Source of the DNA: Dichotomocladium elegans
Lineage: Eukaryota; Mucoromycota; Mucoromycetes; Mucorales; Lichtheimiaceae
DNA: 64,000 nt
Reading direction: 5' to 3'
Assembly (NCBI GenBank): GCA_025716815.1
Contig: JAIXMN010000005.1
Span: 1,054,001 to 1,118,000, forward strand
Shown: in pieces, positions 13,740 through 49,018 of the stretch
Layout of the letters: each line of letters begins with the position of its first letter
Numbering within the stretch: the first letter of the stretch is position 1
Position numbers and translations under genes: made by a program
The notes under the pieces: model-generated
What the model was told of the DNA's origin: nothing
The model's input: the letters and a program-made list of their open reading frames with translations, nothing else
Databases searched by the model: none

Positions 13740-13865
13740 CAAAAATATAAAATTGGTCGCATGCATAGGAAGGCCGAGATACACCCGTTAATCAACAGAC
13801 CGTATCAGCCCCTTCGTACCATTCAATTCACTCCAAAGGTAGCATGGTGTTCTATTGCAGTAACA

Positions 13866-14127: not shown

Positions 14128-14155
14128 TATCGTTATCTACAGAGCATCCGGAATA

Positions 14156-15289: not shown

Positions 15290-15375
15290 TTCAGAAGGTA
15301 AAAGTGTATAAAAGAGAAAGAATCAAAAAGCAAGAGATGGGAAGCGACATCTTTCGATGGATGTCTGTGTTTCTC

Positions 15376-27903: not shown

Positions 27904-28214
27904 GATACCGTGCTAAATACTTGAAAGTTATTCCGTATCTGTTCGGGATATGCATATCGCGTTCTCTAGATTAATACGCCTGTGGAGTTATTCAGACTAC
28001 CCATTCATATTGCCTACGATTATACACTATTTTTCAAAATCAAAGTCGCACCCTGCCAGTTCTGAAGTCGCAGGATCGCAAAATATAAATCGCATTTTTG
28101 CCAGAAATCTTTACGCGTGATGACAAAGCAAATGTCGCATACATACACGGAAAGATGTCGCAAATCCATCTCATCCTTATGACTCTTTCTCTTTATAAAC
28201 TTTTACATTCTGAA

Positions 28215-28680
28215 ATGAGCAATCTATTATTTTACAACGATGGCCAAGGTCATGTCGTAGATGAGTGTGGCTGACCTGAATCTACGGACTATGTCATTGA
28301 TGAGGAAATGTACTCACTTCAATCCTTTTGTTCTTACACTGAATATCTGCGTAGCATATCGTGCAAAGATAACTCTGAGTTTACTGCCACGCACATACCC
28401 AAACGAAAGGATCCAGACATTCGGATTAAAGAAGCGGGGTCAAGCGCAGTTACATAGCATACAATGATTAAGGCGAGGTCAGATCTTTCAAACGGATGTT
28501 CGAGAAGATCTTGAGTGCATCAGCTGCAGCAAAACTGCTAGGAATCCATGTTCGTTCAGCACAGCGATGGGCATTACAGTAAGAAAAGAACCCTGACAGC
28601 ATTTCAAGGAGCGTAGAAGCAGAGGGCCGATTGTGTATTCTCAATGAAGAGCATTAGAAAGTTACAATACATTTATTGTT
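28215..28680 (+). pseudogene. Transposase N-terminal fragment inside Fanzor copy 1
   Basis: CTGAAATGAGCAATCTATT starts the same MSNL...DGQGHVV segment as transposase copy A, and IPKRKDPD and the sequence around CTCAATGAAGAGCAT also match. It has an internal TAG, where copy 2 (44998-) has GTTGATGAG at the same place, plus frameshifts. The catalytic domain is missing; homology to the transposons stops near 28660-28680. Confidence 0.7.
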
Positions 28681-29111
28681 CTAGAATCCAATTGTCGCTT
28701 AAAATAGCCGTACTCAAAAGAATCCTATATCGAGAAGAGTAAGTTTATTCTTGGAGTGTGCTTGTCTCTTTGTCAATGAGCCATTCCAGCTAGGAGATTG
28801 TAACTCCCGAAGCTGGTTATCAAATGGAATAATGAAGTAATGACTTTCAGGAGACTCCTGTGTTCTCATTGTAATATTCAGAGAAATTATTCATTATGTA
28901 CCTACACTTCCTGAACGTATGGATAAGGATGACAGCAGAGTCGTGTTTTGTTGCGTTGTAAGAGACTGAGAGAGTACGAAAAGAAGTACAATCTTCCTAC
29001 ACTACACAAGTGCCGGATATGTATCGAATTATTCTTGAGATGGTCTCTTGGAATTACTTGTTGGAATTGTTTGGGATTTCATTGTTGATTTCAGACCGCC
29101 TCACGTCGATA

Positions 29112-29252
29112 CAGTGGCCGCCCCTTATAGTGATACCCTCGGTTCCAGGAAATCGCATCAATATAATGAATTATCACTGTAACGAATTGGAATAAGCCCT
29201 ACCTGGCAATTTTGTTCTTCATAAAGTGTATCGCTGTAACGAGCGGCCACTG
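29112..29252. mobile_element. Nested 141-bp TA-flanked MITE
   Basis: TA-CAGTGGCCGCCCCTTATAG ... CGAGCGGCCACTG-TA. The ends form ~25-bp imperfect inverted repeats with the CAGTG/CACTG termini and TA duplication of Tc1/mariner MITEs. It is present at the same site in Fanzor copy 2 (45895-46035), so it inserted before the element duplicated. Confidence 0.75.
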
Positions 29253-29496
29253 TAAAACCACATTAAGGAACCCAGTGGGAAAAAGAAAAACACTGTGGAG
29301 ATGGATCATTGCTGACACTATAAATAGTGATGCTCAAGCAAACTGTCCCTTTCCATTATCCACATACAAAACTAGAGCCCATACAGCCTACAGAAAATAA
29401 CACAGCACCACATTTACGGTTGAAGGTAATACGGCCGCTTTCATACTCGGCTCTGCGATACTAAGAAATAATATACCCTAGGTCTTCACCCACCAA

Positions 29497-31689
29497 ATGG
29501 CCCAATCCCACCGCCCCGTCATTCCCGAAGGTATGCGCACTGGCCACAATATTGACCGCACTGGCCGTATAATTGGGGTGAAATCGTCCATACGGAGCAT
29601 CGGCTGGCGACAGCAGTACCGTGAACGTCTGTATCAGTTGGTCGACCTTGTTCACAACACCACAACACAGGCGTACGCGTTCGCCAAATATATTTTCATC
29701 AACGAGACAGCGCGCGATCCAACTTTTAACATCCAGGAAAACATCAAGGAGAAGTTCTTTTCAGAAGTTTGGCTCTCTATGGTTAACAAAGCCGAACGCC
29801 GCACCCAAGGTGAAACTGCCCGCATCCGAGAACTAATTAATTGCCACAAGGATGAGTACCTTCGGATATCCGGATACGACAGACCTGCGTTCCCTTATTC
29901 CCAGCAATGTTCTCTTATGAAGGCACCAAGATTTATACTGCTTACGTGAATAATGTCCACATGCGGTTCGGGCAACACCTTCGGCGTGTCATCAATGTCA
30001 TCCTGAATCTTCGTCAGCGAAAAGCCGACCGCAAGCGAGAGTTAATCGCACAGGACCTAAGCCTCGATCAAGTACGCCAGGGCATTTATGAAATCATCAC
30101 CCGGCATGCCACAGGATTCAAGCTAGCAATTGCCCGTCGAGGTGTTTTGAGGGAAGACATTAATGCCGAACCTGGATTTCTTCGGGAAGCATACGATATC
30201 CTACAGCCTGTTTTAAACGCTTACCCCCGAAACCACCAATTCCAACACCAGAGTATCTATTACGACGCCAAGGCCAATCCTGTTAAGCATTTCAACGCCT
30301 TCTTCAGCTTGCACGTGTTTGTCAACAGAACGGAATACGCGGATTCAACTGTTTTCCACTTCGTCGCTCGTGGTCACCATGCTACATGGAGATCGATACG
30401 AAAATCCTTTGCTACCATATCCTGGGCTGCAAAATGGAATCCCACACAAGCAATATGGAGTAATGGAGACGGGTTGTAAACCTGAAATCAAGAGCTTTCA
30501 AACCCCAAGAATCTGAGCTGCTCCAATTTCGTGGGACTATTCACACTGACGGCGTCGGTGTTACTGTGTTCAAGAAGACAAATGGCCTTCAATCAGGTTT
30601 CGGACAGAGATTTGGCATCCAGAGCGAAGATATCGAGTACGTCACCCCACAGATAGTCCGGAACGAAGACTATAGAGGACAATGGGTCACTATTGATCCT
30701 GGCAGAAGGGACCTGTTGTATTGCGTTCATGAGAACTCGTCACCCGACAACCACCAGACCTTCCGATATACAAAGCAGCTTCAAGATCATACACGCAAGA
30801 CCAAACGGTACCGCAGACTCCGAGAACGACTCAAGTTAGAGCGACCCGAGGTCGCGTTGGCTGAGCAGAATCTATCCCAATTTCAAAGTCATACGCTTTC
30901 CGTGCCCAACTACGACGGATACCTCGCTGCCAAGAACAGGGTCTCTGTAGTTCTCAAGTCTTTCTACGCGACAACCACTACGAAGCACCCGAACCCACAA
31001 TTTCTTTTTCGAAAACTTCGCCTGTCAGCGTTTTACAAGAAGCAGCAAGCAGATGAAAAGCTTCTCGGCTCTTTGAATGCGAAGTTTGGCAGTAGGTCTG
31101 TTTTCGTGATGGGAAATTGGTCTGCCCCGCATACAAGATATCACGAGCCTATCCGTGGTGTCGGCTTCCGGCGGCTGTTGAAGAAGAACAATTGCAATAC
31201 TTATTTGATCGACGAGTACAAGACAAGCAAGTGCTGCCCTATATGTGACAATGAAAGCCTTGCTACCTTTAAAATGGTTCCTAATCCACGCCCATATCGG
31301 CGGCCCGACAATCCCCTCACGATCTGCCATGGCCTGCTACGGTATGAAGGACGGGCATGTTGTGTTATATTTCCAAAAAGATTTTAATATTTTGATGTTT
31401 TAATAGATGCACAAATCAAAACTGTACAGCAGGCATGGCAGAGGGTGTTTGTCAACCAAGGTTATGGAACCGGGATCTGGGGGCGGCTCTCAACATGCAT
31501 CATATCCTCCGGGGTCTTCGGGAAGATGGTATCATCCCAGCAAGGTTTCAGAGAAGAAATGCTGCACAAGCGTCCGCAGCTGGTGGAAGGCCACACTCAC
31601 CTGAACCAGAGCAGCGCAGCGTGAGACCACGACGGGCAAGGCCAGGAAGGCCACGAGGCGCACGCTCTGGCGGGTCGAGACGACCGTAA
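29497..31689 (+). pseudogene. Fanzor (TnpB-like RNA-guided nuclease), copy 1, broken
   Basis: Fanzors are eukaryotic relatives of TnpB with a C-terminal RuvC nuclease. N-terminus MAQSHRPVIPEGMRTGHNID; WRQQYRERLYQLVDLVHNTT. The domain before RuvC has ESELLQFRGTIHTDGVGVTV. RuvC-I is VTIDPGRRDLLYCVHE (Asp at ~30695). A second segment has MGNWSAPHTRYHEPIRGVGF. A zinc ribbon has SKCCPIC (~31231) and ICHGLL with Cys in an exon after a probable ~70-bp intron (31359-31429). RuvC-III is RLWNRDLGAALN (31465). The tail is Arg/Pro-rich (RPRRARPGRPRGARSGGS). Lesions: a 1-nt loss near 29911, a 1-nt shift near 30345 shared with copy 2, and TAA at 30461. Intron splice sites are uncertain. Confidence 0.85.
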
Positions 31690-31800
31690 GCCCGACCAAG
31701 AATTTTCCGCGTCAGTTATCGCTGACGCACCCAGGATAACCACGGCCCTTCGGGGCAAGCCCCCCCTTCCTTTGTAAGGACGGTGTGTTGTAGGTTAACG
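31690..31800 (+). ncRNA. Candidate Fanzor guide-RNA (omega/fRNA) scaffold, copy 1
   Basis: Immediately after the nuclease stop. Three consecutive hairpins: GCGTCAG/CTGACGC with a 6-nt loop (31709-31728); GCCC-TTCG-GGGC (31745-31756), a perfect stem closed by the very stable UUCG tetraloop; and TCCTT/AAGGA (31768-31780). A further nested pairing CTGTT/AACAG within GGATT/AATCC lies at ~31800-31850. The first two hairpins are unchanged in copy 2. Location 3' of the nuclease gene and before the right end matches where known Fanzor and TnpB guide RNAs arise. RNA expression is not shown. Confidence 0.55.
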
Positions 31801-31950
31801 GGATTGGAGAAGGCGTACTGTTTTCCGCTGACTAACAGGGTTTAATCCATGGATGCGAAATCTTTTTACCTATTGATACCACAAATTTATATAATTCTAT
31901 GCGACATTTTTCTTGTATTTTGCACGACTTTATTTTTGAAAATAAAGTAT

Positions 31951-33390
31951 GCGGATTAGCCGTTTCATATGGTTTTATTAGCTATGCTGTATCATCTGTA
32001 ATTGTAGTTATTTGTACTAGTACTCCTTCGCGTATATAGACTTACTGTTATTAGTATTAAAGAACGGATGATCTTGTTTCTTTGTTTCCATCCAATCCAT
32101 CCATTTCACCATTTCGTTGGGATTTGTGGTTCTGACTTCTTGTATTGCTCTTTTTGGAAAGTCCGAAATCTTTCTGTCAAGTCTTTCTTTGTCTTTTCTT
32201 TTCTCGTACGTAACTCTCCGTCTCTATTCAGTCCAACCTCCTTTGTGTCCTCATCCACATACCTTGCAATTCCTCATACCATACCAGTCACATATAATGA
32301 ATAGACCCCGCATACCGCCTGCCATTCCCTGGGAAGTCCAAGATTTATGTACGTATTCTAACGATGAATGCCCACAGTACAGGCATGGGTTAGTCTTTGT
32401 GACTTGGGTACACAGGAACACTGTAGGCTTTGGTAGATATTGCCATTTTTGGTCGCCTGAGGGTTTTTCTATCAGACTTGGGCTTATAAAGTAGTACGCA
32501 GAGAAGTTACACGTACCCACGTTCTGCTACGAATCAAAAATATAAGCTATCTAATGATTTGGTGGTTTTAAGTCATCGGCCTAGCTTTCTCTCAACAATA
32601 ACCTGTTGCATTTGCGTTTATTGTAATAAGGTATTATTTTCTGCCAATAGGTACGAGAATCGCTAACCAATGTGGTTCTTGAACTGTGAAAGAGCGCATC
32701 TCTGCGGCCTATGACGCCACTATATTCCGAATCGGATCGGTTACTGTTAAGCCGCCCGTTTCACATATTGTTCCACAAGATTCTTGTCGCTATCACAACC
32801 TTTTCATTTTTGCAGAAGCCATTGCTTCGAAGTTCATATATTCTAATGCTTGGATTGTGAGGCTAAGAGATCTCCGAATACAAGAGAAGTGCCTGAATCT
32901 TAGTCCATTTATATATGTAATATCATGTCAAAATGTGTCAGGGTGCCTTTGCTCGCTTGTCGGATGTTATCAATCCGGGTCCTACCCATGCCGTCGGATT
33001 TTTTTCCAAAGATGTGAAATAGTGCCACTTGACAACCAAGTTGGCAATAAATGGCGCTCTTTAACACCCCTATAAGGATGTGACGTGTGTGCTTGGGAGC
33101 TTTCGTTTTGTTTGGCGTACATGGCGTCTATTATTAGTATGCGAGATGTGCAATACAAGGACCGGTTGCAGCTTCGCAGCGTATGATCAGTTAAGCCACT
33201 TCTGAGGAGAAGGCTTATACGTATTCCGGACTTGTAGAACATCGACACTTTTTCTTCAAAGCTTGTGTGACTTCAGCCCCATTTTCAAGCTGTGAGGCAG
33301 GTCTACCAGCCTACAGCCATCTCACAGAATATAAAAGGGTGAAGAAAAGGTCCTCTAGATGACCATCCACTCAGTTCTTTATATACTACT
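31951..33390. other. Intergenic between Fanzor copy 1 and the M13 peptidase
   Basis: No conserved gene. A short frame from ATG at 32297 (MNRPRIPPAIPWEVQDL) has no recognisable relatives. Upstream exon(s) of the peptidase encoding a membrane anchor or signal peptide could lie here but none was convincing. Confidence 0.4.
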
Positions 33391-36164
33391 ATGCCAAGCA
33401 TATATTCTCGAGGCCCTGCTCTTGAAGTATGCCAAACACAGACATGCCTTACGGCCGCAACCGAGATCCAGAACTTTGTGAACTTCAATGTCGATCCTTG
33501 CGACGATTTTTACCAATTCGCATGTAAGCCATCCATTATTTGTGCCACGGAGAAAGTCGTCTTTGATCTTTCTCATTTGTAAAAAATAATATCAGGTGGA
33601 AACTTTCTTGAGCATACGGTGGTCGACGAGAATAATCCAAGTACGTGCTTGTCAATCCACGTTTCCTCGAGAAGTTGAAGTATTAACAATAACGATTACT
33701 CTAGGATCGGGCCCTTTCATCAGCGGTGATGCCAACATTATTAACGGTATTGCCAGTATCCTGAATGGATCTTATGAGGAGCTTCTCAGCGTCAATCTTG
33801 CTCCTGACTTTGTCGAGGGCGCCAACTATTCCAGCGAGGCAGATCAACGGGTGTTTAACTTTCTGAAGTCTTACTATGACTCGTGCATGGACACAGCTAC
33901 CGTTGAAAAGGAAGGCCCGATTCCGCTCTATCCACTCCTCGGAAACATCGACTATGCATCCTCTTCCGGTCTTGATGCTACGGAGATACGTACTGCCTTG
34001 ACAATTCATGCTGATTCTTTTGGTTTGGTGAACCTCTGGAAAACGACGGTGGCCCCCAATCCTTCAGAGGCGGGTATGAACATGCTTGCTCTCGAATCCA
34101 TAAAATACGGCTACCTGGAGAGCTTGAACAGCAGTAACCCCGAAGAAGTCGCTAACTTCAAAACAATGCTGACGGGAATTGCGGATGCGATTTTTGCCTC
34201 CAATAATACTGACTATGTACAAGCTGCCCAAAAGGCTAGCTTTAAGCTCTGGGCAAAGGACGAGATGGAAGCGCGCATCGACCGGGTGATCCAGTTCCAG
34301 GCCGGGATTTTTGATCTTCTTAGCACCCTAGAGGAGTATGTGTAGCGTCAAGGAGATGCTGATTCAATATATACAGATTAACCGCGCGTGGTGACTGACA
34401 ATTCTCTTCCTTTGTTTATAGTGTGGATTTCTCTGGTCACATTAAAGAGAGCACAAAGACTATCGCCGAAATTCAGGAGTCCTATCCGATTGTTAACTGG
34501 GAGATGTATTTCCGCTATTTTGTCCCTAGCGATAGAGACGTTCCAACTGAAGTCGTGGTTGCAATTCTTCCGGGATATCTTGATGAACTGACTAAGCTAG
34601 TGAGCTCTACGCCGTTGGAAACATTCCGAGACTACTTGCTGTTCCAAGTTGGATTGCAGAATGCTGCCGAGAGCGGCTCTCAAATACGGTCCATCATGGG
34701 CATCGCAGATGAAGACAGACAAGCTACATGCGTCGGTTATATTCGCAAGTATTGGGATATCCCAATGGTGCGCTATTATGCCATGAAGTTTTTCGGTGGA
34801 GCTGAGAAGCGAAACCAGCTCTATCAGCTTGTGAGCAATGTCCACCAGGCATGGACCAACCGTCTCAGACGTCTGGACTGGCTCGATGACACGACGCGTG
34901 CCAATGCAGAAGACAAGGTATGCAGCTACCGATAGTCTGGACACAGATTTGGATCTAATGGAGCAACATAGATTGCGAAGATCGGTCAGTGGGTCGAGTA
35001 CAACCTGAACTATCCTGATGATCGCACCCCGGCTGAGCTGAGCGATTATCTCGGCCCAATCGAATTTACTGGGTCTTTTGGATCAAATCAACTGCTTGCC
35101 AAGCGATTTGTTGCAGTGAGACGCAATTTCCTCGACGTTGGAAAGCCGGTGAACCGTGAAAACTTCGCTTTCCTCCCCGATATCTCGCTTCTTGATATGA
35201 ATGCCTTCTACAACTCACTGACGAACTACGTACGTATGCCGTTTCTCCGTTTCGCCAAGTGCTGCCTCTCTCCCGCTCAATCCGGTTTATAAAGAGGAAA
35301 CACTCATCATATCTATTTCAAACAGATCACTATCCTTCCAGGCTTAGTCCAAAGTCCGAATTACGACTCCAACTACCCTGCTTATCTCAATTACGGCAAT
35401 ATTGGCGCGACAATTGGACATGAGTTTACGGTAACTACAGAAGCATACTACGTGAAATCGGCTGGTTCTCCTGGATTTTGAATCTAACAAAATACCTCTC
35501 CAACAGCACGGATTCGACACCCAGGGCCGACTTTTTGATGGTGATGGTCGCTACCGGGACTGGTGGACAGAAAGCACGACGGCTGCTTTTAGCAAGAAGA
35601 CAATGTGCTTGATCAACCAATACAATAACATGACCGTCGAAGGTCCAGGGAATACCTGGCTGCATGTGGATGGCAATGTATGTCTCACTCATTCTCAAGG
35701 GTCCTATGCAAATCGTGAACCCTTACCTACCATGTCCGTTAAATACTTATTGTTCTTTTGTTCGATTTCTAGTTCACTCTGGCCGAAAACGTCGCTGACA
35801 ACGGCGGTATCGGCGCAGCCTATGAAGCTTACGCCACCTACTGGAACAGCGGTGCAGAGAAGCAGATGACTTTGCCAGGTATAGATTTGACCCCAGACCA
35901 ACTCTTCTTTGTCAGCTTTGCGCGCTTCTTCTGCCTTAAAACCACACCAGAGTACAATGAACAGAGCGTAAGTACAAAAAAAAAGTATTCCCTAGACTAC
36001 GTGCTGACGGGCCATCTCTACCTCGACAGCTCCCTCTGGATAACCACTCGCCCAACAGCATACGCGTCAAGGCTACCCTGCAAAATTCTGTCGACTTTGC
36101 AAAAGCATACAATTGCCCTGTTGGGAGCTACATGAATCCAAAAGAAAAATGTTCCGTCTGGTAG
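33391..36164 (+). CDS. M13-family (neprilysin-like) zinc metallopeptidase
   Basis: Neprilysin/PepO-type oligopeptidase. The N-terminal signature is VCQTQTCLTAATEIQNF then DPCDDFYQFAC. Next are GNFLEHTVVDENN, SYEELLSVNLAPDFVEGANY and FNFLKSYYDSCMD (peptidase_M13_N). The catalytic part has YPAYLNYGNIGATIGHEFT|HGFDTQGR: HExxH with the second His encoded after an intron (35431-35507). ENVADNGG (third Zn ligand Glu and Asp) and the C-terminal CSVW also match. At least eight introns. Start at 33391 (MPSIYSRGPALEVCQ) is tentative: M13 enzymes usually have an N-terminal transmembrane anchor or signal, which I do not see, so an upstream exon may be missing. All catalytic residues are present. Confidence 0.88.
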
Positions 36165-36604
36165 CCGACACCCGCACTATATTGCCATCCACTTGTATAT
36201 AGTACTATTTCTTAGTGGGAAAACATTATTTAATAAATGAGTATATTTTTTCTCCATCTGCTTAACCCGTACTGTCTCTTAAAAAGTAACAGACAAAGGT
36301 TGTCATTATTGTCTCGTTTTATGTTAAAACAGAAAGACCTTTATTCTAAGACCAATGGCTATGAATCTCCAGACTATTTGCAACACGCGATCTCGATATC
36401 CATATCACTCGAGCAAAAAGCAATCCAATGCTCGTGATCCTTTGCATTTATAGTGAGCTTGCCATTCGTAAACTGCCAAGAAGGAGGAAAAACTTAGCAC
36501 CTTCTACTTTCATTCATTGCAACGTCTCTCAGCAAGACAGTATTTATTGTGTTTACGAAGTAGTATTTCTTTACACGTGTATGGATTGATGTCCATTTGG
36601 ACAA
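36165..36604. other. Convergent 3' region
   Basis: Lies between the M13 peptidase (+) and SIN3 (-) stops. AT-rich with AATAAA-like signals at about 36229-36236. No coding potential. Confidence 0.5.
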
Positions 36605-39600
36605 TCAACTGTTGATAGTGGGGGATTCTGACAATTTCTTACAGGGTCCCCTCTTTACCTTTAAATAATCCTCAGTCCCAGTAACATAGAACAACCTGTA
36701 GGTGTTCTGGCATACTTTATACTCCTGCCCTACTTCGCCACGCACATCCAGAAATTCCTTGACGTTGCGCTTAAGAAAAGGCTTCCGCATGCTTGCGCTT
36801 AGCAAAATATCCGTGTCATCGCCAAGCGACTTGAGGTACTGCACATAGTTGTGGTACTTTTGCGCCTCCTTTTTACCCTCGATATATATATTTCCTAACA
36901 CCGATATTGAAATCGTAATTTTGTTTGTCCCGCTGGGCTACAAAATGCAGTTATAGATGTGAATTATCTTATTCTTCTAGATATATATATATATATATAA
37001 ACATACCACTGATATAAAAAGAGCATAGAGATGCCCTTCATCTTTTTGGATATCTTCCGCCTTCAGGCGATATGGCAATAGAAGAGTCAGACTTGGTTCC
37101 GGAAGCGAGCCTTCTTCGGACCTGTATAGCTCGACCAATTCGCGTGATTTCAGGTCTGTGACTGCAATGTAGGCTTGATGCGATAGGGCGAAGAGGAGTC
37201 TATCGATAGTGAAGAGCACGTAGGCTTTCAGTCCAAATATGTAGCGGACACATGCTTCAAATGTAGATTGATCAATCGAGTTTGCAAGCAGCCGCTTTAT
37301 GAGGTCCACCATGGTAGTGTAGTAGCCATTCGTGAAGTCAAGTTTAACGCCGTGATACTGCGTCTTCCTGCAGCTGAGGTCAATTTGTGCCCGACAGCTT
37401 CGCTTGGTTCCTTCTGGATCATTAGCATATTTAGATGCGATGTTTTTCATTGTTTCTAGTCGCTCATAAAGTATCTATAGACGCATTAGTATATCTGAAT
37501 CATGTCTATTCTGATATTTTTACTTACTTGGTATAGTCGGAAGAAACAATAGAGAGTATCATTTGCCAGAAAGCCGTTTACTAGATTACAATATTCAGCA
37601 CGGTTGTAAACTCATGAACTAGCCTGATTTTACCTTCGGCATCACGTTTCACTGGTGGGTCTGCTTTTATGAGCGGATGAACAAAGGTGGCGAAGAATTT
37701 CTGTATATTACGGACGACTGATTCACCATAAATGACTCGATTTGCGTTGAATGTGGTCAGGATTTCTTCAATATCAGTGAATATATCGCGGTCTGTAAAC
37801 TCATGGACTATTTGAGGCGTATTATCCCCGTCGTTGTCCATCTGCTGCTCAAATCGCATGCACTCAATCTCAGTGACTAATGACTTTATGGAGAGCGCCT
37901 GCTTGTCCGTGCTTTTAAAGGTGGCGCATCTACTGTCTAATGCTTTGTAAAAGTTTTCGGTCTCGTCCTCTTTCCATGTCTTGTCTTGAGCTGCCTTTTG
38001 GGAACATATTAGGCTCAATCGGTCGATAATATCCTCGGTTGTCCTCAAGAATACCTTTTTTTTCTTCCATTCGTCCAGCTTAGTCTGTAACAGTTTAAGA
38101 ACCGCAGGTATAGTTTGTGATGGATTCGCATACATCAACGCCAAGATCTTATCGGCGTCCTTATTGTACAGCTTTTGAACCGCCACCTTATATGCTAATT
38201 CTGACCTAGCACCAAGATATTGTGGCGCACGGTAGTTTCTGAGCTGATCTGGAGAGAAGGTCCGCATAGTATCCGAGATGCGATTCAGTAATCCAAACAG
38301 GTGGCTTCCTGAATCGATCAGACGATCGAGCTCGTAACGTTGTTCTTCAACATTGTGGAGCACCTCCTCAAACTGATTCTTCTTGGATGCAACAAATCCA
38401 CCGTCTTCGCTCGCCCATATGGGATGAGACGCATACTTATCATTCAGGACCTGACTGCAGAGATCATCTCGCCCGGAGCATCGCTGCATCTCCCTCTACC
38501 ATGCCTGATTAAGTCAATGGAAAACGTTAACATAGGCTAGAAGACTTACTGCTTTCGATATACGACGGTAACTCGGACCTGAAGATTCGAAAGTCTTGGC
38601 TTGAATCAGCACCTTACTCCAATATACCACAGGCGGACACTATACCATCTTTTGCCTACGCTGTCTTGGAGGCTCTTTTGTTGGAGCATTTTGTCCGCGA
38701 GAAATTGAGTTTTCGCCTAGACCGCTATCATGATACGCGAGCATCTCTTTGAATTTGGCAAAGAGCTGTGGGTCACCCTGCAAAAAATCTGATGCTTTGC
38801 GCACGGTCGATTCTCGATCGATCATCCCTTGATTAAAGAGATTTATCACCTTGAGAAACATTGAATAAGTTTGATCATTGCCAAGCAGCTCTTTCACACG
38901 GGCAAAAAAAGCCAGGTTTTCCTGTCCAAATTGGATTTGCCGTCCTGGCGTCGATATTTTCTGTTTCTTGGATGTCTATCAAACTCTGGATATCAGTAAT
39001 GATTTTATCTCTCTGTCTGCTACACACATGATGCAAATCCTCTGGTATGGTATTGGAACGGTATCGGTCCATGCTCTGGTACGCTATGGTGAAAATGTCA
39101 TTTAACGTATAAATTGTTAGCGCGGAGATGAATCAAATCATTACCATCACTGGCGGGTAAGAACCTTAGAAATTCACCCATCAAAACAGGGTCATCTCCA
39201 AAAAGTGTTTCAGCTTTGAAACGCACCTATATTGAATATTGAAGATGTAAATGTGCAACTATCTTGTATGAATATATTTATCTGATACCTACATCTGTCG
39301 CTGTACATCGCATCTCCTCAAAGTCATATAACATCCGCTGGAATTGCGCAAATGCTCCGGGTTTGTTTGACAGCCGTTGCTATCTCAAACCCGCTTTACT
39401 ATGCTTCCTGTCTGAATAACTGAAGTTGAGGTGGGTATACCTTCGCAAAATTTACAAAGCGGATAGCTAGACTGAACTCCACTTGTTTTCTGTTACTAGC
39501 GTAATGCTAAATGTCCATTCAAACACATTAGCAAAGGCTTTTACGCATGGAACGGTAGCTTACCGCGTTTGTTTCTGGAGAGTTAGTAATATGATAACCT

Positions 39601-40909
39601 TGTGGGATGAAATAGTTGAATCCAGAAATCAGCCAGGGATACCCATAAAAGAGTTCAGAGACACATGCAATAGTCTGTGACATGGGCTGTCTTCCAACAG
39701 ACAATGGATCATGTCAGAAGAAGATTCTCTAGGTATATTTATGTGTACTCACTGGTATAATCGTGCGGCTTTCATTATATCCAGGAACCGGTTGTATTTG
39801 TCCGGATGATGGCGAAACACCATTTTCACCTCCTGCAAAAACCTGATTGCCTCACTAGCATAGTTGGGTGTTGAATTTACTTGTTGACCATACGGATGCC
39901 GGAAAGAGCTGGTCCGGCGATGATGCTCTGAAAAGGTAGCCGGGTTAGACTCTGTCGTAGAAGAGTAATGGCTAGAACGGATTCCTGTCTCTCGGTTCAC
40001 TAAGCCATGTGCTCCGCTCCCAGGCAAGGTTGAAACCGGGCGATTATTTGGTGGCGCTGGCGTAGCTGCTGCTGTCACCGATGACGGATCGAGTGCAAGT
40101 TGTTCCTGACTCTGCGCTTTGAAAGCGCCATTCTTTGATTTTCGGCGTTTGCTATTATATCCATCACGCTGACCTCCCGCAGAATCCTTTGTCAACTCCG
40201 GACCCGTTATATTGGGCGAATCGCTGGGTGTGTTTGATAAAGCGGGAATCTGACTATTTATCGGCAATTTCCCATCTTCATTATTCGCGACAGGCTGCTC
40301 AGAATGGTCGTTTCTGCATGTCTCTTGTGTTACGTAAGCAATAGTGGACGGAGTGTCAGTTAGGAGCTTTTGGCCGACGGTGCTATTGCCTTCCTCATCG
40401 CGCGCTGATGGCGATAATTCCATAGATGCTGTGGAAAGATCCTTTAGAGAATGCGCAGAGGCATCAACTTGATTATTTTCTAGTATTCGTTTTCTTGAAG
40501 TAAAAATAGGGATTGCTTTTTGATTTTTCTCAGAGCAGGGCTGATGATTTAAGTCTGAATCTATAGAATGCGAAAGGCCGTCGCGTTTAAATTGACTCGA
40601 ATGATTGTTCTGAGGTTGAGTCGAGCTGCATCTTGAAGCATTTCTAGATCCATTAACGTCCTCTGGATATTCGTTACTCGTGTAAACAGCGTGTGATGCT
40701 AAATGGACTGAACCAGAGAAGTTGTCTCTCAAGTTAACATCATCGATCGCGCGGTCCCTGGTAGCAGGCGGCAACGAAGATTGACGCGGAATTGACGCGG
40801 CTGATGTAGATCCTTCAGATGGTTCGTTTTTTGGATCATAATTTGTGTACGGGGCTGATGGCGCGTCCTTACTGTGGGGATCCATAAGGACAGGTGGCAG
40901 TGAAGGCAA
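36605..40909 (-). CDS. SIN3: SIN3 transcriptional co-repressor
   Basis: Scaffold of the Sin3/Rpd3 histone deacetylase complex. The long N-terminal exon (40909-39749) is Ser/Asn/Pro-rich with a basic SKRRKSKNG patch and ends in PAH1: AIRFLQEVKMVFRHHPDKYN, FLDIMK; continued by LISGFNYFIPQGYHI. PAH2 has LAIRFVNFAK and AETLFGDDPVLMGEFLRFLP. PAH3 has FFARVKELLGNDQTYSMFLK and GDPQLFAKFKEMLAYHD. Then come GPSYRRISKA and the HDAC-interaction domain: CSGRDDLCSQVLNDKYASHP, GFVASKKNQFEEVLHNVEEQ. The C-terminal SIN3 domain follows, with LANSIDQSTFEACVRYIFGL and KAYVLFTIDRLLFAL. It ends at 36605. Many introns; one contains (AT)n at 36981-36999. It is more diverged than typical SIN3, perhaps a paralogue. 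The start could lie further upstream. Confidence 0.9.
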
Positions 40910-41858
40910 AAGAAAATCGAAAGCTGCCGCTGCAGGAATGGGAAACGTCCGTATTTAGAAAGTGGACTTATCAGCCAATAAAAGTGTTTAACGAAAATCA
41001 GTAGCGTGGGATTGGTAGATAAGAAGCTGAATCACGGTGAGTAGCTGCGTTGCGTTATCGGATGATCGCCAGTCAACGTGAGCCAAGAGTGAATACCGTC
41101 GCGCAAACACGGAAAACTAGAATAGGGCCAAACCGTATGAACGTTGACTGGTGGTTGATACAAACGCCCCGCCTATGTTGTCTAGCAGCAATAATAAGCG
41201 CTGTACATCACGGGGTCGTCGCATCCTATAACTGTGCCAGCTCTTTGATTCCGTCACCTTTTATCCCATATATTGAAATCGAGGATCTAATTGCTTTTAG
41301 ATAGACAATCCGACCATATCCTTATATAAGTTCGAGTGGAGGAGAGGGCACCTCGCATTTTCTTTCGCGCCTCTGTGAAGAATGGTTAGTATCCATCTGA
41401 TGCAAGAAAACTATACAGACATCATTCCCCTTCTCTCTGCTTTTAAGCAAGATTTGGTTGTCATGATGGTATACAAGGTAAAATGAAAAACGCACGACCT
41501 CGGTCTTGGGACTTTCCGGTCACGCTGGCATGTGTCGTCTCATCTTTGCTCCTAAAGCTCCGGTGTCCTTAACGCTGCAATGTCGAGTATTCGGAGGATG
41601 CTGTATGAGGAGGAACCCCACTTAAAAAAATCTTTCTCTACAGTCATAATGCATCTAGTCCTACTCCCCAAAATAATGAGTGAACTGATCTCGACAACAA
41701 AGATACCAGGTGTTCACTTGCACATAACGCGTTCACTTTATTCGAAATTCCTGTGCTTTAATAAGCGACTATGGTCAAATACCCTCCCTTTCAATCTGCA
41801 AGTGCCGCCATGGGATTCGCCGCCATTTATACAAAGAAGGAGGATACAGGAGAACAGA
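40910..41858. other. Intergenic, SIN3 promoter side and TFB5 3' flank
   Basis: A good TATA-like stretch (CCTTATATAAG at ~41319) lies ~65 bp before an ATG at 41383 that is followed by GTTAGTATCC and a pyrimidine tract ending TTTTAAG. This resembles a gene start with a first intron, but no recognisable protein follows. It is possibly a decayed gene. Confidence 0.35.
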
Positions 41859-42089
41859 TCAACGTTCATTCTTGCGGCTATCTCGTTCCTCCGTAGAAAT
41901 CGTATATGAATTCTCGTCCAAGATTCGATCTAGCTCATACTGGAGTTCTTGCACACATGTCGCTTCCACAAAAAGATGTGTTTCGTCGAGGTCCTCAATC
42001 ACAAAATTCCCGCTTTCGTTGAGATTGAGAACAATCTGCTTGACCGTAGGATCACATTCCAGCAGAACGCCCTTGACAGCTTTCACCAT
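41859..42089 (-). CDS. TFB5: TFIIH subunit TFB5/TTDA (GTF2H5)
   Basis: Small TFIIH core subunit that stabilises the complex and stimulates its XPB ATPase in nucleotide excision repair. A single ~76-residue exon: MVKAVKGVLLECDPTVKQIV, then NFVIEDLDETHLFVEATCVQ, ELQYELDRILDENSYTI and a charged tail. It matches the family from end to end in length and motifs. I chose the internal ATG at 42089, which starts the conserved MVKA, over an upstream in-frame ATG whose extra 36 residues are unlike the family. Confidence 0.93.
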   Translation of the reverse strand: MVKAVKGVLLECDPTVKQIVLNLNESGNFVIEDLDETHLFVEATCVQELQYELDRILDENSYTISTEERDSRKNER

Positions 42090-42531
42090 GGCGGGCAGAG
42101 AACAAAGGGTAGAAGAGCTGGCGGAGCGGCAAATGATTTGTCTTTCCCCTGGTGAGCCAAGAGAGATGACTAGTTGGCGGCCAATAGGAAATATCAAACA
42201 CTTCTCCGGACGATTTTAAGAACGGATGTCCACCTTCAGACACCGACTTACCCTCCCATTATCGCTACAAGTTTTCGCTGCGCGAGTCTTCGCTCGATAG
42301 TCGCTTGCATCATTTCGATAACATGGCGCGCATATTGACGATTTGTCTGCGGTGGTAAAACGCTTCCGGCCCCATCTCATTGTTACCCACGCAAATCGAC
42401 TACAGTATTTAAACCTTCCAGAGCATCATATTCTTCACTTTTTTTTTTTAGCTTGCTACATAGCATTCGTTTCATTCCTGTCGCTATTAGAATAAATACC
42501 ATTTTCTACAAAGAAAAACTTAACCCGAGTG

Positions 42532-43470
42532 TCAGCTACATGTCCTGTTGGGGTTGGTAATTGCGTAAGAACTGAGTAGTAACGGCAGAAGCAACTGCGA
42601 CCACTCTTGCTGGAGCAATGCAGAAGATGCAACGTGCATCTCGGTGAAGCCAGGGTTGGAAGCCATGTGCTGTTCCCGAATCCTTCATCTATCCAATGAT
42701 TTATTTCCTCTCTTCTTGTAACAACGAATTAAGCACATCGATACCGTCGATACAGCTATGTGCTCACAGGTGTAGGACAAATGAGATATTGGGAACTGAT
42801 CCTTACCGTCCAGGAATGGTTGAACGGTAACCCCGACCGTTTGGTGTTCATGTGGCGACCCAGCCGGACAGCTGTTGCACATGACCAAATCGTCGCCGCC
42901 TGAGGAGCAGGAATACAAGAGGTCTAGGAACACAAGTGAAATGCGTGGTGCAAGGCGCGGCATCCGATTATCGCCGTATCTGTCGCTCTATCCGATGCTA
43001 TTGATTAGATAATGTACTCTGGATGTCTCCTGGATTATTCACGAAACATACCTCGAAATGAGTGGTGTATTTGCTGCGAGAGTCAACGCCTCTTTCTCGC
43101 GGTGTTCGGCCATGATCGCACTGTATAGGTCGGCTGCCACCTTGAACTGATCTATGACGGATCATAATCTCCATTTAAATGAACAGAAGATATATTCGTG
43201 GACCACTTAACTAGATAAACATACCTTGTAAAATATGACATTCCACAAGAAAATTTCCCGCTGGCGTTGTCAGCCTATCCGACGGCCCAAGATCATCCCC
43301 TACAGCGCGTTGACGAATAACCTATTCCAAATCTCCAAGCGTATACCATTTAAGGTATGGGTTTGCAGGTTTGTACACATCATTCTCCGAAACTCTCCTG
43401 GCGATGGTTCTACGCCGTCGTGCACAGCCCACGGCATAACTGTATCTCTAACCGACGCAAATCAAAAGGC
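42532..43470 (-). pseudogene. Unidentified multi-exon gene or gene remnant
   Basis: Exon-like minus-strand blocks are joined by plausible GT-AG introns: HTLNGIRLEIWNRLFVNA; DDLGPSDRLTTPAGNFLVEC followed by HILQ; QFKVAADLYSAIMAEHREKE followed by ALTLAANTPLISR; and either ALHHAFHL or DNRMPRLAPRISLVFLDLL, depending on frame. The last block is NPGFTEMHVASSALLQQEWS then LLLPLLLSSYAITNP, ending at TGA 42534-42532. A stop between the first two blocks and frame ambiguity later suggest decay. I recognise no family. No start was identified. Confidence 0.35.
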
Positions 43471-44800
43471 AATCTACGCTGAGAAATGTCGATGTTTTCG
43501 CCTTTGAAGCTACTTTCGGATACCTTTATGTCGCGGGGCATGCACCGGTATTGCGAGGAGTTGTCCATTGTCTATGCATGTTGAGCAGAAGGTTAGATCT
43601 TTAGACATTCTAATTTCTATCCATAGAAACATACGCTATGAAGCGATCGTTCGCTGCTTAGAGAGACACAAAGTCTTTCTTCATCCTGAGCCTATGACCA
43701 TGGATCACACTGTCATACGTCGTGCGGCATGCAATCGTACTGTGAAGGGAATTTTCATTCGATCTAACCATGGATATAGATTTTAAAATAGTGGTTAGAT
43801 CCTTGATCGTCGTCTTTTGCTTTTTTCATTCAACTTGCTTTTGTAGGCGGGTTTGTTTGGTTGCAAAACGCAGGTCTCCGTCACCCATGACAACCGGCAT
43901 AGCCCCAGGCACTAAAGGAGCATTACGTTTCAGCGAGTGGCAGAGCATCACGCTATGATAGACTGGGAATCCAGATTGGGCAGGTGCACAAGTTTGAAAA
44001 GAGATGTTGTTGGGTTGACCGTAAGAGACTGCGTTGGTAACCGACCCGCGTTGCTTGCGCGTCGGATCTCATTGTTAATGACCTGATAGAGGCACGTCCG
44101 CTACACCATTTGCACTGGAATTCACGGCCAAGCAAAAGGTAGTTAGAGATTTCGATGGGCCGAGCGCCGATGAAAGCGATATTCACGATCTCAAGGGATA
44201 ATGCTTGCGTAGCGTAAGCTGTCCAATGGCCAGCCACATTGTGGCAGAAAACCGAGACACATGATCACGGGGAAAATCAAAGGAATTCATAGGTACCCGC
44301 ACCAGAGATGCCAAAGACATAGGAAGTACACCTTGAGCTATCCGAAGCCATATTTTTCCCGGTTGGGAAGGAGGTGGACCTCGGTAAGGCGTTGGACGAT
44401 GTCAATGAAGAGGGACATATTCGACGAACAATCAATTTGTTTGTGAAGATAGACAGGGCCTTCTTCCTGATGAACATGACTACCGATTCAAGTTTATAGT
44501 TTCCTGGGTGATTTCTGAGTGGATCATCCGCAGCAAAACAGCGAGAAATAACCCTTCATTCAGTGTAATCATGGGAAAGGGCTCTGATGCGTACATAATA
44601 GCGTTTTTAACAATCAGAGTCAGAAACTGCTTAGGCATCCTCAAGGAGACTACAGCATAAAAGACCAAACACAATCTTAAGAGCATTGTTCATTAAAGCT
44701 TGACACTTCTGAGATGGATAAACATGAACCCATGAAGAGCACTCATGGATGAGGATGAAGTTATTTTGAATACAGCGACTTTTCGCCATTGATCCGCCGT
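43471..44800. other. Intergenic / decayed sequence left of Fanzor copy 2
   Basis: Fragments of protein-like minus frames (44480-44686, 44277-44477, 43953-44237) occur in inconsistent frames. One has FGISGAGT, reminiscent of a P-loop but lacking the Lys. Nothing here supports a functional gene. Confidence 0.35.
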
Positions 44801-44997
44801 GATTATACACTATTTTTCAAAATCAAAGTCGCACCCTGCCAGTTCTGAAGTCGCAGGATCGCAAAATATAAATCGCATTTTTGCCAGAAATCTTTACGCG
44901 TGATGACAAAGCAAATGTCAGATACATACACGGAAAGATGTCGCAAATCCATCTCATCCTTATGACTCTTTCTCTTTATAAACTTTTACATTCTGAA

Positions 44998-45463
44998 ATG
45001 AGCAATCTATTATTTTACAACGATGGCCAAGGTCATGTCGTTGATGAGTGTGGCTGACCTGAATCTACGGACTATGTCATTGATGAGGAAATGTACTCGC
45101 TTCAATCCGTTTGTTCTTACACTGAATATCTGCGTAGCATATCGTGCAAAGATAACTCTGAGTTTACTGCCACGCACATACCCAAACGAAAGGATCCAGA
45201 CATTCGGATTAAAGAAGCGGGGTCAAGCGCAGTTACATAGCATACAATGATTAAGGCGAGGTCAGATCTTTCAAACGGATGTTCGAGAAGATCTTGAGTG
45301 CATCAGCTGCAGCAAAACTGCTAGGAATCCATGTTCGTTCAGCACAGCGATGGGCATTACAGTAAGAAAAGAACCCTGACAGCATTTCAAGGAGCGTAGA
45401 AGCAGAGGGCCGATTGTGTATTCTCAATGAAGAGCATTAGAAAGTTACAATACATTTATTGTT
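44998..45463 (+). pseudogene. Transposase N-terminal fragment inside Fanzor copy 2
   Basis: Equivalent of 28215-28680. The segment MSNLLFYNDGQGHVVDE is open here, whereas copy 1 has a TAG. Relative to transposase copy A it carries an insertion of about 36-40 nt after this segment and then loses frame. The catalytic domain is absent. Confidence 0.7.
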
Positions 45464-45894
45464 CTAGAATCCAATTGTCGCTTAAAATAGCCGTACTCAA
45501 AAGAATCCTATATCGAGAAGAGTAAGTTTATTCTTGGAGTGTGCTTGTCTCTTTGTCAATGAGCCATTCCAGCTAGGAGATTGTAACTCCCGAAGCTGGT
45601 TATCAAATGGAATAATGAAGTAATGACTTTCAGGAGACTCCTGTGTTCTCATTGTAATATTCAGAGAAATTATTCATTATGTACCTACACTTCCTGAACG
45701 TATGGATAAGGATGACAGCAGAGTCGTGTTTTGTTGCGTTGTAAGAGACTGAGAGAGTACGAAAAGAAGTACAATCTTCCTACACTACACAAGTGCCGGA
45801 TATGTATCGAATTATTCTTGAGATGGTCTCTTGGAATTACTTGTTGGAATTGTTTGGGATTTCATTGTTGATTTCAGACCGCCTCACGTCGATA

Positions 45895-46035
45895 CAGTGG
45901 CCGCCCCTTATAGTGATACCCTCGGTTCCAGGAAATCGCATCACTATAATGAATTATCACTGTAACGAATTGGAATAAGCCCTACCTGGCAATTTTGTTC
46001 TTCATAAAGTGTATCGCTGTAACGAGCGGCCACTG
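45895..46035. mobile_element. Nested 141-bp TA-flanked MITE (copy 2)
   Basis: Same element and same position as 29112-29252, with CAGTG...CACTG ends next to TA. Confidence 0.75.
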
Positions 46036-46279
46036 TAAAACCACATTAAGGAACCCAGTGGGAAAAAGAAAAACACTGTGGAGATGGATCATTGCTGACA
46101 CTCTAAATAGTGATGCTCAAGCAAACTGTCCCTTTCCATTATCCACATACAAAACTAGAGCCCATACAGCCTACAGAAAATAACACAGCACCACATTTAC
46201 GGTTGAAGGTAATACGGCCGCTTTCATACTCGACTCTGTGATACTAAGAAATAATATACCCTAGGTCTTCACCCACCAA

Positions 46280-48472
46280 ATGGCCTAACCCCACCGCCCG
46301 GTCATTTCCGAAGGCATGCGCACTGGCCACAACATTGACCGCACTGGCCGTATAATTGGGGTGAAATCGTCCATACGGGGCATCGGCTGGCGACAGCAGT
46401 ACCGTGAACGTCTGTATCAGTTGGTCGACCTTGTTCACAACACCACAACACAGGCGTACGCGTTCGCCAAATATATTTTCATCAACGAGGCAGCTCGCGA
46501 TCCAAATTTTAACATCCAGGAAAACATCACGGAGAAGTTCTTTTCAGAAGTTTGGCTCTCCATGGTTACCAAAGCCGAACGCCGCACCCAAGGCGAAACT
46601 GCCCGCATCCGAGAACTAATTAATCGCCACAAGGATGAGTACCTTCGGATATCCGGATACGACAGGCCTGCGTTCCCTTATTCCCAGCAATGTTCTTCTT
46701 ATGAAGGCACCAAGATTTATATTGCTTACGTGAATAATGTCCACATGCGGTTCGGGCAACACCTTCGGCGTGTCATCAATGTCATCCTGAATCTTCTTCA
46801 GCGAAAAGCCGACCGCAAGCGAGAGTTAATCGCACAGGGCCTAAGCCCCGATTAAGCACGCCAGGACCTTTATGAATCCATCACCCGGCATGCCACAGGA
46901 TTCAAGCTAGCAATTGCCCGTCGAGGTGTTTTGAGGGAAGACATTAATGCCGAACCTGGATTTCTTCGGGAAGCATACGATATCCTACAGCCTGTTTTAA
47001 ACGCTTACCCCCGAAACCACCAATTCCAACACCAGAGTATCTATTACGACGCCAAGGCCAATCCTGTTAAGCATTTCAACGCCTTCTTCAGCTTGCACGT
47101 GTTTGTCAACAGAACGGAATACGCGGATTCAACTGTTTTCCACTTCGTCGCTCGTGGTCACCATGCTACATGGAGATCGATACGAAAATCCTTTGCTACC
47201 ATATCCTGGGTTGCAAAATGGAATCCCACACAAGCAATATGGAGTACTGAAGACGTGTTGTAAACCTGAAATCAAGAGCTTTCAAACCCCAAGAATCCGA
47301 GCTGCTCCAATTTCGTGGGACTATTCACACTGACGGCGTCGGTGTTACTGTGTTCAAGAAGACAAATGGCCTTCAATCAGGTTTCGGACAGAGATTTGGC
47401 ATCCAGAGCGAAGATATCGAGTACGTCACCCCACAGATAGTCCGGAACGAAGACTATAGAGGACAATGGGTCACTATTGATCCTGGCAGAAGGGACCTAT
47501 TGTATTGCGTTCATGAGAACTCGTCACCCGACAACCACCAGACCTTCCGATATACAAAGCAGCTTCAAGATCATACACGCAAGACCAAACGGTACCTCAG
47601 ATTCCGAGAACGACTCAAGTTAGAGCGACCCGAGGTCGCGTTGGCTGAGCAGAATCTATCCAATTTCAAAGTCATACGCTTTCCGTGCCCAACTACGACG
47701 GATACCTCGCCGCCAAGAACAGGGTCTCTGTAGTTCTCAAGTCTTTCTACGCGACAACCACTACGAAGCACCCGAACCCACAATTTCTTTTTCGAAAACT
47801 TCGCCTGTCAGCGTTTTACAAGAAGCAGCAAGCAGATGAAAAGCTTCTCGACTCTTTGAATGCGAAGTTTGGCAGTAGGTCCGTTTTCGTGATGGGAAAT
47901 TGGTCTGCCCCGCATACAAGATATCACGAGCCTATCCGTGGTGTCGGCTTCCGGCGGCTGTTGAAAAAGAACAATTGCAATATTTATTTGATCGACGAGT
48001 GCAAGACAAGCAAGTGCTGCCCTATATGTGACAATGAAAGCCTTGCTACCTTTAAAATGGTTCCTAATCCACGCCCATATCGACGACCCGACAATCCGCT
48101 CACGATCTGCCATGGCCTGCTACGGTATGAAGGACGGGCATGTTGTGTTATATTTCCAAAAAGATTTTAATATTTTGATGTTTTAATAGATGCACAAATC
48201 AAAACTGTACAGCAGGCATGGCTGAGGGTGTTTGTCAACCAAGGTTATGGAACCGGGATCTGGCGGCGGCTCTCAACATGCATCATATCCTCCGGGGTCT
48301 TCGGGAAGATGGTATCATCCCAGCAAGATTCCAGAGAAGAAATGCTGCACAAGCGTCCGCAGCTAGTGGAAGACCACACTCACCTGAACCAGAGCAGCGC
48401 AGCGTGAGACCACGACGGGCAAGGCCAGGAAGGCCACGAGGTGCACGCTCTGGCGAGTCGAGACGACCGTAA
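46280..48472 (+). pseudogene. Fanzor nuclease, copy 2, broken
   Basis: Same protein as copy 1, with the motifs IDPGRRDLLYCVHE, SKCCPIC, CHGLL and RLWNRDLAAALNMHH preserved. Lesions here: the third codon is TAA (46286), although an in-frame ATG at 46316 could still serve; TAA at 46853 where copy 1 has CAA; the 1-nt shift near 47129 shared with copy 1; TGA at 47248; and a 1-nt loss near 47661. It keeps the frame at the position where copy 1 is shifted (near 46695). So the two copies decayed largely independently, after inheriting one common lesion. Confidence 0.85.
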
Positions 48473-48580
48473 CCCCAACCAAGAATTTTCCGCGTCAGTT
48501 ATCGCTGACGCACCCAGGATAACCACGGCCCTTCGGGGCAAGCCCCCTTCCTTTGGAAGGACGGTGTGTTGTAAGTCAAC
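48473..48580 (+). ncRNA. Candidate Fanzor guide-RNA scaffold, copy 2
   Basis: Same hairpin series as copy 1: GCGTCAG/CTGACGC (48492-48511), GCCC-TTCG-GGGC (48528-48539) and TCCTT/AAGGA (48549-48561). The differences between copies fall mainly outside stems: a loop T-to-G change in hairpin 3 and loss of two C in the single-stranded C-run between hairpins 2 and 3. Confidence 0.55.
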
Positions 48581-49018
48581 GGGATTGGAGAAGGCATAGT
48601 GTTTTCTGCTGACTAACAGCGTTTAATCCATGGATGCGAAATCTTTTTACCTATTGATACCACAAATTTATATAATTCTATGCGACATTTTTCTTGTATT
48701 TTGCACGACATTTATTTTTGAAAATAAAGTATACTTCGTGGATCTGAACGTTAAGTGAAAGATATGAAGTACAAGTGTTTGCATTTTCCGTTGATGAATA
48801 AATCTCTTTCTTGCGTATAACTTGATACGGAAGAAGGGCAATATTTGTGATACTAACTCGCTTGTACAGATTAGTAGGGGGAGTTTTCGTGGCTGCCATT
48901 CCTCGGCGATTGAGCGTTTCCATCATGAAGCATTTCATCCGTCGCGGAGCCAAGATTATCTGGGCATGAAAGCGGGAATACCGTATAATTTTTTGCCCCT
49001 CACTTGTCTTGTTCACTT

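Follow-up and report, generated by a model that had tools for sequence, protein, structure and literature searches.

A Fanzor1-bearing, non-autonomous mariner family in the genome of the Mucorales fungus Dichotomocladium elegans

Fanzors have been described in DNA transposons since 2013 and were shown to be RNA-guided nucleases in 2023. Here, a stretch of 64,000 nucleotides from Dichotomocladium elegans (contig JAIXMN010000005.1, positions 1,054,001 to 1,118,000; the window) is analyzed, which contains two near-identical elements, copies A and B, each carrying a Fanzor1 gene. A protein disulfide isomerase frame in the window has 100% identity over 366 amino acids to a protein of this fungus, a member of the Mucorales family Lichtheimiaceae. 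They belong to a well-supported family of Fanzor1-bearing, non-autonomous mariners, a kind of element that is already known. D. elegans is not known as a host of such a family. No description of it was found in the titles and abstract openings of the listed, openly licensed papers on Fanzor, mariners and Mucorales, which is a weak indication of absence.

Among the described systems, SPu-1/SpuFz1 of Spizellomyces punctatus is similar in having a Fanzor1 in an element with terminal inverted repeats (TIRs) and (putative) TA duplications, in many, partly intact copies. In the sections that present SPu-1, no transposase is reported between the ends, and Fanzor-less relatives keep the ends and the 3′ RNA region, as in D. 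elegans (Bao and Jurka, 2013, PMC3627910; Saito et al., 2023, PMC10432273). According to the same sections, the conserved dinucleotide left of the left end is CA in SPu-1, whereas it is mostly TA here. SPu-1 moreover has a single frame and 550-nt ghosts, whereas the D. elegans element is 3.9 kb long with a recognizable mariner N-terminus and an intron-containing gene, and most of its Fanzor-less relatives examined are mariners of the transposase type. The closest solved relative of the protein is PpFz1 of Parasitella parasitica (PDB 9cf0), which has the same catalytic motifs. In the structural passages of its description, its omegaRNA is small, with seven pairs in stem-loop (SL) 1 and four in SL2, as in the fold proposed below, and the protein has a cyclophilin-binding RuvC insertion (Xu et al., 2024; PMC11423790). 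This insertion is taken to be chain residues 1002–1094, 93 residues between the phmmer blocks that the D. elegans protein lacks. One of the hosts of mariner-type Fanzor1 elements is presumably an oomycete, judging by the prefix of the element name. The mariner-type elements PGv-1, PUl-1, PUl-4 and HMa-1 likewise carry Fanzor1 in TA-flanked mariners, with or without transposase, but are presented from viruses and Hydra, whereas D. elegans is a Mucorales host with several families in one genome (PMC3627910, element descriptions). MCi-2 and MCi-5 of Mucor circinelloides are also multi-copy elements of a Mucorales host, and MCi-2 has variable 5′ parts and a conserved Fanzor part. In contrast to the present family, however, they are described there with 11–12-bp or putative 6-bp target-site duplications (TSDs), without clear TIRs and with links to Crypton- or Harbinger-like transposases (PMC3627910).

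Self-BLAST of the window aligned positions 28018–31950 with 44801–48732 as direct repeats of 98.1% identity (3935 columns, 69 mismatches, 4 gap openings, E 0), and the flanking DNA of the two is dissimilar on the left as well as on the right. This agrees with the initial annotation, which had described two near-identical direct copies with different flanks. The exact ends lie a few bases inside the earlier limits, with CAC at 28025 and 44808, AAAG at 31947 and 48729, and TA outside each; the extra GATTATA common to the left sides of A and B includes the TSD TA and the preceding TA. The elements are delimited as follows:
28025..31947, + strand: copy A, Fanzor-bearing, mariner-derived element of 3923 bp
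44808..48729, + strand: copy B, Fanzor-bearing, mariner-derived element of 3922 bp
28023..28024, unstranded: left TSD (TA) of copy A, with another TA directly before it
31948..31949, unstranded: right TSD (TA) of copy A
44806..44807, unstranded: left TSD (TA) of copy B
48730..48731, unstranded: right TSD (TA) of copy B

A whole-genome search of the D. elegans assembly (39.4 Mb, 122 contigs) gave at least 61 matching places. Apart from the two window copies, these were assigned to 37 loci, all of which were retrieved. This yields 39 copies or fragments, the shortest comprising approximately 1.7 kb of the element. Copies are dispersed with TA at their borders: among the 35 left and 35 right ends that could be located, the adjoining dinucleotide has T in 35/35 and A in 34/35 on the left, and both bases in 35/35 on the right. 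At least 16 places, among the best 70 of 860 candidates, have the full first exon open (639 codons, no stop). After removal of an intron, a 709-codon frame is intact in 17 of the 39 copies and broken in the other 22, including A and B. The 37 further copies or fragments, with all 17 intact ones among them, and the mariner origin described below lay outside the reach of the initial annotation.

On sequence evidence, the encoded protein is a Fanzor1. The spliced frame of copy L013 (709 amino acids, two exons) was compared with PDB by phmmer and matches PpFz1 with E 1.7e-129 (residues 22–666, two blocks) and SpuFz1 with E 3.3e-51 (residues 39–665), which bears out the Fanzor-type nuclease of the initial annotation. 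Splicing raises both matches, from 1.6e-119 and 1.6e-42, respectively. The catalytic motifs IDPGRRD (RuvC-I), DEYKTS (RuvC-II glutamate), CCPVC...HGLLRC..NC (zinc ribbon) and WNRD (RuvC-III) are present in the spliced frame and align to both chains. All four motifs named in the initial annotation were also located in A and in B. In copy A, DPGRRD, CCPIC and CHGLL share one frame and WNRDL is in another, while DPGRRD of copy B is in yet another frame. The main cause is a predicted intron that separates CHGLLR from WNRD; in addition, A and B each carry real lesions. This intron is plainly visible in a second Fanzor family with 57% amino acid identity (L046, L047), in which splicing gives HGLLRC-x3-NC...WNRD; in the first family, the predicted splice likewise restores the zinc ribbon and the RuvC-III motif. 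The parts of the gene are:
29497..31341, + strand: Fanzor1 exon 1 of copy A, with two one-base deletions and one stop
31342..31406, + strand: predicted intron of copy A (GTATGA...AATAG), at the same position as the intron in the 57%-identical second family
31407..31689, + strand: Fanzor1 exon 2 of copy A, with the second zinc-ribbon half (RCTNQNC) and RuvC-III (WNRD)
46280..48124, + strand: Fanzor1 exon 1 of copy B, with two one-base deletions, one of them common to A, and three stops
48190..48472, + strand: Fanzor1 exon 2 of copy B
30695 (A) and 47479 (B): DPGRRD
31232 (A) and 48015 (B): CCPIC
31325 (A) and 48108 (B): CHGLL
31465 (A) and 48248 (B): WNRDL

Upstream of the gene in copy A, a TATA-box-like sequence is present at 29316–29332. 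Searches with the protein found 114 relatives; the named ones are all from Mucorales and other early-diverging fungi. For the Fanzor frames, Pfam gave no more than sub-threshold matches, the fitting one being Cas12f1-like_TNB, and PF26935 was seen solely as a precomputed label of homologs. A phage collection contained no match to the Mucor relative.

Upstream of the Fanzor1 gene, the elements retain the N-terminal, helix-turn-helix (HTH) part of a Tc1/mariner transposase. In L013 this remnant is a frame of 129 amino acids that shares 71% identity with the N-terminal part of the intact transposase at L088 (C44; 473 amino acids, DDE_3 E 1.8e-30), which itself is 99.5% identical over 2229 bases to L108. 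The DDE part is present in the second family and missing in the main-family copies compared. Together, the 71% remnant and the missing DDE part identify the repeats, as judged from these frames, as a Tc1/mariner derivative that has lost its transposase core; with an N-terminal remnant as the only trace of an own DDE transposase in these copies, the family is filed as non-autonomous. The ends, read from TA to TA as CACYATTTTTCAAAATCAAAGTCGCA...TTTATTTTTGAAAATAAAG, are only partial inverted repeats of each other (18 nt, 89%). A 28-base pattern of the left end occurs 185 times in the genome with at most three mismatches, and its reversed control 0 times. Relatives that carry transposase sequence have these ends as well. 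In the second family, frames derived from a transposase lie upstream, and the right end is the same; it was found in L046 and L047, where the transposase is damaged. L057 has the same two ends (the left with one mismatch) around a damaged transposase, is 1.7 kb long and holds no Fanzor. The transposase fragment of the window has at least 150 scored relatives among 1204 candidates in the genome. The corresponding features of the window are:
28025..28050, + strand: left end of copy A (CACTATTTTTCAAAATCAAAGTCGCA)
31929..31947, + strand: right end of copy A (TTTATTTTTGAAAATAAAG), self-complementary and a partial inverted repeat of the left end
28155..28582, + strand: N-terminal (HTH) remnant of a Tc1/mariner transposase, its start read from the sequence
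22870..24487, + strand: decayed mariner relative without Fanzor, with a transposase fragment at 23452–23871; its left part is common with the element and its 3′ end aligns to the candidate omegaRNA region
13741..15367, − strand: another decayed mariner relative, in opposite orientation to that at 22870–24487 and 94% identical to it over 1398 columns

Downstream of the Fanzor stop codon, a conserved stretch begins after 14 bases in family 1 and directly in family 2. RNAalifold predicts a closing stem of UUUUCC with GGAGAA that encloses SL1, SL2 and, in family 1, also SL3. The candidate scaffolds are:
31703..31813, + strand: candidate omegaRNA scaffold of copy A, with closing stem UUUUCC/GGAGAA, SL1, SL2 (UUCG loop) and SL3
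48486..48594, + strand: candidate omegaRNA scaffold of copy B

The fold is conserved and covaries. Among 24 sequences drawn from the two Fanzor families, two-sided changes affect two SL1 pairs (8 cells vs. 1.7 in shuffled alignments). In a wider set of ten mariner and four Fanzor sequences, 88.8% of the SL1 cells are paired (67.0 when shuffled), two-sided changes affect 23 cells (9.9 when shuffled) and the covariation score is 0.677 (0.298 when shuffled), each of these values being reached by 0 of 500 shuffles; slid registers of this set pair for 26–47% only. SL1 arms from within one class form 6–7 of the 7 pairs (L085 only 4). Mariner arms combined with family-1 or family-2 arms form 2.6–3.5 of 7, whereas family-1 and family-2 arms can partly stand in for each other. 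It is likely that this 3′ fold, known from sequence comparison, is the omegaRNA of the Fanzor. When sequences are folded singly, the whole stretch is unconvincing in family 1 (z −1.7, with −3.0 for the first 74 nt) as well as in family 2 (z −0.45). The register of the 4-bp SL2 helix seen in family 1 is not conserved in family 2, and Rfam gave one chance-level match (E 0.27).

Several results weigh against this identification. In the wider set, 329 of 500 shuffles have at least as many pairs with a two-sided change (5/7), and 90 of 500 at least as many pair types; in the 24-sequence set, the corresponding figures are 210 and 500 of 500. Moreover, the spacing between the SL1 start and the right end ranges from 201 to 268 nt, with one case of 108 nt, whereas solved Fanzors have a tight junction between scaffold and guide. 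This variable distance is why an internal guide was considered, and the guide could indeed lie within the element. Finally, the same fold is present in mariners without Fanzor, so that it might be a mariner feature unrelated to the nuclease.

The latter explanation survives best among the alternatives and is unlikely, though it carries appreciable weight. The 3′ structure would then be a terminator, a transposase-binding hairpin or a similar part of the mariner, and the real omegaRNA would be the terminal stretch only, or would not exist. The region with SL1 and SL2 was found in 10 of 23 mariner loci, namely L057, L085 and eight others, in each case with no Fanzor between transposase and fold. 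In addition, the terminal right-end sequence itself can be read as a hairpin (TTTATTTTTGAAAATAAA) next to TA, which fits published scaffolds that include the TIR and TSD, as presented in part of one report (PMC10711439). On the other hand, SL1 covaries and begins at most approximately 20 nt from the Fanzor stop codon in both Fanzor families. It also has seven pairs, like SL1 of the three solved Fanzor1 omegaRNAs in the structural comparison of PMC11423790, and a common 3′ RNA region is likewise reported in the passages on Fanzor-less ghost elements of Spizellomyces (PMC10432273).

The 23 mariner rows consist of L088–L107 (20 loci selected mostly for open frames, from the 150 scored relatives among 1204 candidates), L057 and L058 (selected by their left end) and L085. 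L085 owes its selection to a match between its 3′ region and the RNA region of family 2 and therefore does not count as independent; without it, the fold is present in 9 of 22 loci. For the eight further loci, the 700-base piece after the transposase was used, in which transposase and fold are too close together for an intervening Fanzor. Seven of the ten SL1 rows were obtained with a pattern that leaves both arms free, while L095 (from a scan requiring at least five pairs) and L100 and L103 (from a paired-consensus pattern) lean towards pairing. Of the ten stems, four have all seven SL1 pairs; the others have six (two stems), five (three stems) or four (one stem). The fold was not matched in the other 13 of the 23 loci (L058, L088–L092, L094, L096–L098, L104, L106, L107). 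The two window mariners align in the fold region, with damaged stems.

Ghost-like derivatives, i.e., elements with the ends and the 3′ RNA region and no Fanzor frame, are also present. L084, 1.2 kb long, derives from the Fanzor element by internal deletion: most of the Fanzor frame is gone, while both ends, TA and the 3′ region are still there. L057 combines both ends, transposase remains and the 3′ fold without Fanzor; for L085, no right end was found by pattern. In Spizellomyces, 134 Fanzor-less ghost elements with a common 3′ RNA region are reported, and help in trans is considered in the part of the paper that discusses them (Saito et al.; PMC10432273). The fold in Fanzor-less mariners suggests, but does not prove, a division of labor in trans. 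A doubtful extension is that transposase-type mariners (omegaRNA, no nuclease) and nuclease-type elements (Fanzor, no transposase) depend on each other in trans, with Fanzor as a retention factor shared by the whole mariner lineage. If true, the covarying SL1 in Fanzor-less mariners would be a trace of this mutual dependence.

The Fanzor frame is under purifying selection, as reflected by the ratio of non-synonymous to synonymous changes. Pooled against the majority sequence, pN/pS is 0.20 in the 17 intact copies (0.21 over 136 pairs) and 0.32 in the 22 broken ones. Between the two Fanzor families, dN/dS is 0.17, a rough figure since dS is approximately 2 and thus near saturation. The transposase stump is without clear comparable constraint: its pN/pS is 0.60 in the 19 of 39 copies in which the remnant is open, and 2.5 in 12 of the 17 Fanzor-intact copies, where very few changes are present. 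These values bear on a second alternative, in which the Fanzor frame is carried as a passive passenger and the nuclease adds nothing to the spread of what is an ordinary non-autonomous mariner. In its favor, broken copies (A and B among them) do persist, and L084 has retained both ends and TA despite the loss of most of its Fanzor frame. However, a pN/pS of 0.20 in 17 intact, dispersed copies is unexpected for a passenger, the more so next to a transposase remnant that lacks such constraint, and this alternative is considered improbable.

The initial annotation had taken the high identity of A and B as a sign of recent mobility. The element is indeed mobile, with TA duplications, but this pair is no evidence of especially recent movement: its identity ranks 238th of 741 pairs, and intact copies elsewhere are up to 99.6% identical. 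In addition, the synonymous divergence between A and B is 0.045, vs. a mean of 0.022 between intact copies. The family has spread fairly recently, then, but it is not this pair that tells so. As both copies are broken and have one one-base deletion in common, their further lesions being separate, A and B look like two members of a decaying subfamily. That they arose by local (segmental) duplication or gene conversion instead of transposition, to which this deletion, their being each other's closest copy among the 39 and the recurrence at three other loci of an element fragment joined to the left flank of A could point, is very unlikely, since the flanks are unrelated on both sides (matching flanks being what the initial annotation had expected of a segmental duplication), the copies stop exactly at the element ends with TA, and the common deletion, being located in CC, may have occurred twice.

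The recurrence concerns the left flank of copy A together with the first ~60 bases of a left end, after which other sequence follows. It was located at:
L061, L062 and L063, ~300 bases into each, L061 on the reverse strand: recurrence of the left flank of copy A

With flank and left-end piece at three further loci, an old insertion in that repeat was probably amplified together with it. Immediately to the left of copy A, the window has a large near-palindromic inverted repeat at 24655–27903, which contains further internal repeats and whose arms (24655–25538 and 27020–27903) are 99.4% identical.

The insertion sites were also inspected for a target-adjacent motif (TAM). Directly outside the left TA, T is present in 33/35 and A in 34/35 cases. 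The mirrored right-hand positions have 22/35 and 31/35 (Fisher p 0.0027 and 0.36, respectively). The same motif is present at 22 left ends that have no nearby Fanzor match among the best 70 of 860 candidates (T 22/22, A 19/22; three of them have one common flank, and L075 is the left end of L084). The motif is therefore not shown to be Fanzor-specific, and reading a TAM from the insertion sites was dropped. A further point against it is that the target site is nearly palindromic (TATATA), so that most of the left-side motif can be transposase preference. Left ends of the L088 type have CA at the dinucleotide left of TA. A conserved CA is likewise found at this position in the Spizellomyces elements, with CATA as the TAM of SpuFz1, in the relevant part of PMC10432273; PMC11423790 has, in one sentence, the two motifs the other way round, with CATA assigned to GtFz1 and TTAA to SpuFz1. 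The left-side motif, T[A/G]TA or CATA, is suggestive only, and a YATA-type TAM is offered as a prediction. Empty sites were sought with the joined flanks of 25 of the 39 copies. One uninterrupted relative was found, L060 for L012, with approximately 81% identity over 65 bp and no junction gap when one TA is counted. L059 was rejected as the empty site of L014, from which it differs by a stretch of ~47 bp and is thus not clean.

Overall, the probable reading is that of a non-autonomous Tc1/mariner element that has lost the catalytic part of its transposase and has kept a Fanzor1 gene with a 3′ guide-RNA region. A related mariner transposase would act in trans on the common ends and insert copies at TA. 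Such trans-mobilization has good chances of being correct. It is countered by the state of the candidate mobilizers: L058 has an identical left end and L057 one with a single mismatch, but the transposase is damaged in both, whereas the intact transposase of L088/L108 lies behind a left end that differs at several positions. Fanzor would bind the omegaRNA transcribed between its stop codon and the right end, the guide would be read from the right flank, and the nuclease would cut the unoccupied allele or excision site, upon which repair from the occupied copy would restore or spread the element. For a guide taken from the right flank and a role in retention or homing, the chances are about even. 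What makes the family notable is that nuclease, transposase and presumed guide RNA are spread over different elements of one genome, with many copies that have a selected nuclease and the stump of a lost transposase, and mariners that have the presumed guide fold and no nuclease. The D. elegans genome is thereby a natural setting for testing Fanzor-promoted retention in trans.

Some minor observations were made on other copies and relatives. In L031, L032 and L034, the first 700 bases of the element are 86–88% identical to copy A and the sequence downstream 94–95%, as if 5′ ends had been swapped between subfamilies. The intact copy L014 lies directly downstream of the apparent 3′ end of another, diverged Fanzor gene (LWNRDMAAC, seen by eye in the left flank, within the first 600 bases of the locus). 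Fanzors of Syncephalis plumigaleata are among the closest relatives of the protein, with 43–46% identity (P0002–P0004, P0007, P0008, P0012). This fungus is a parasite of Mucorales, and the closeness might reflect a transfer between the two. A third Fanzor type, with an open first exon of 609 codons and 52% amino acid identity to the main family, is present at L108 (C57:1659200-1664900). A second end of this candidate element was not found there; the gene faces the intact mariner transposase in convergent orientation, and L108 is possibly an autonomous Fanzor-mariner.

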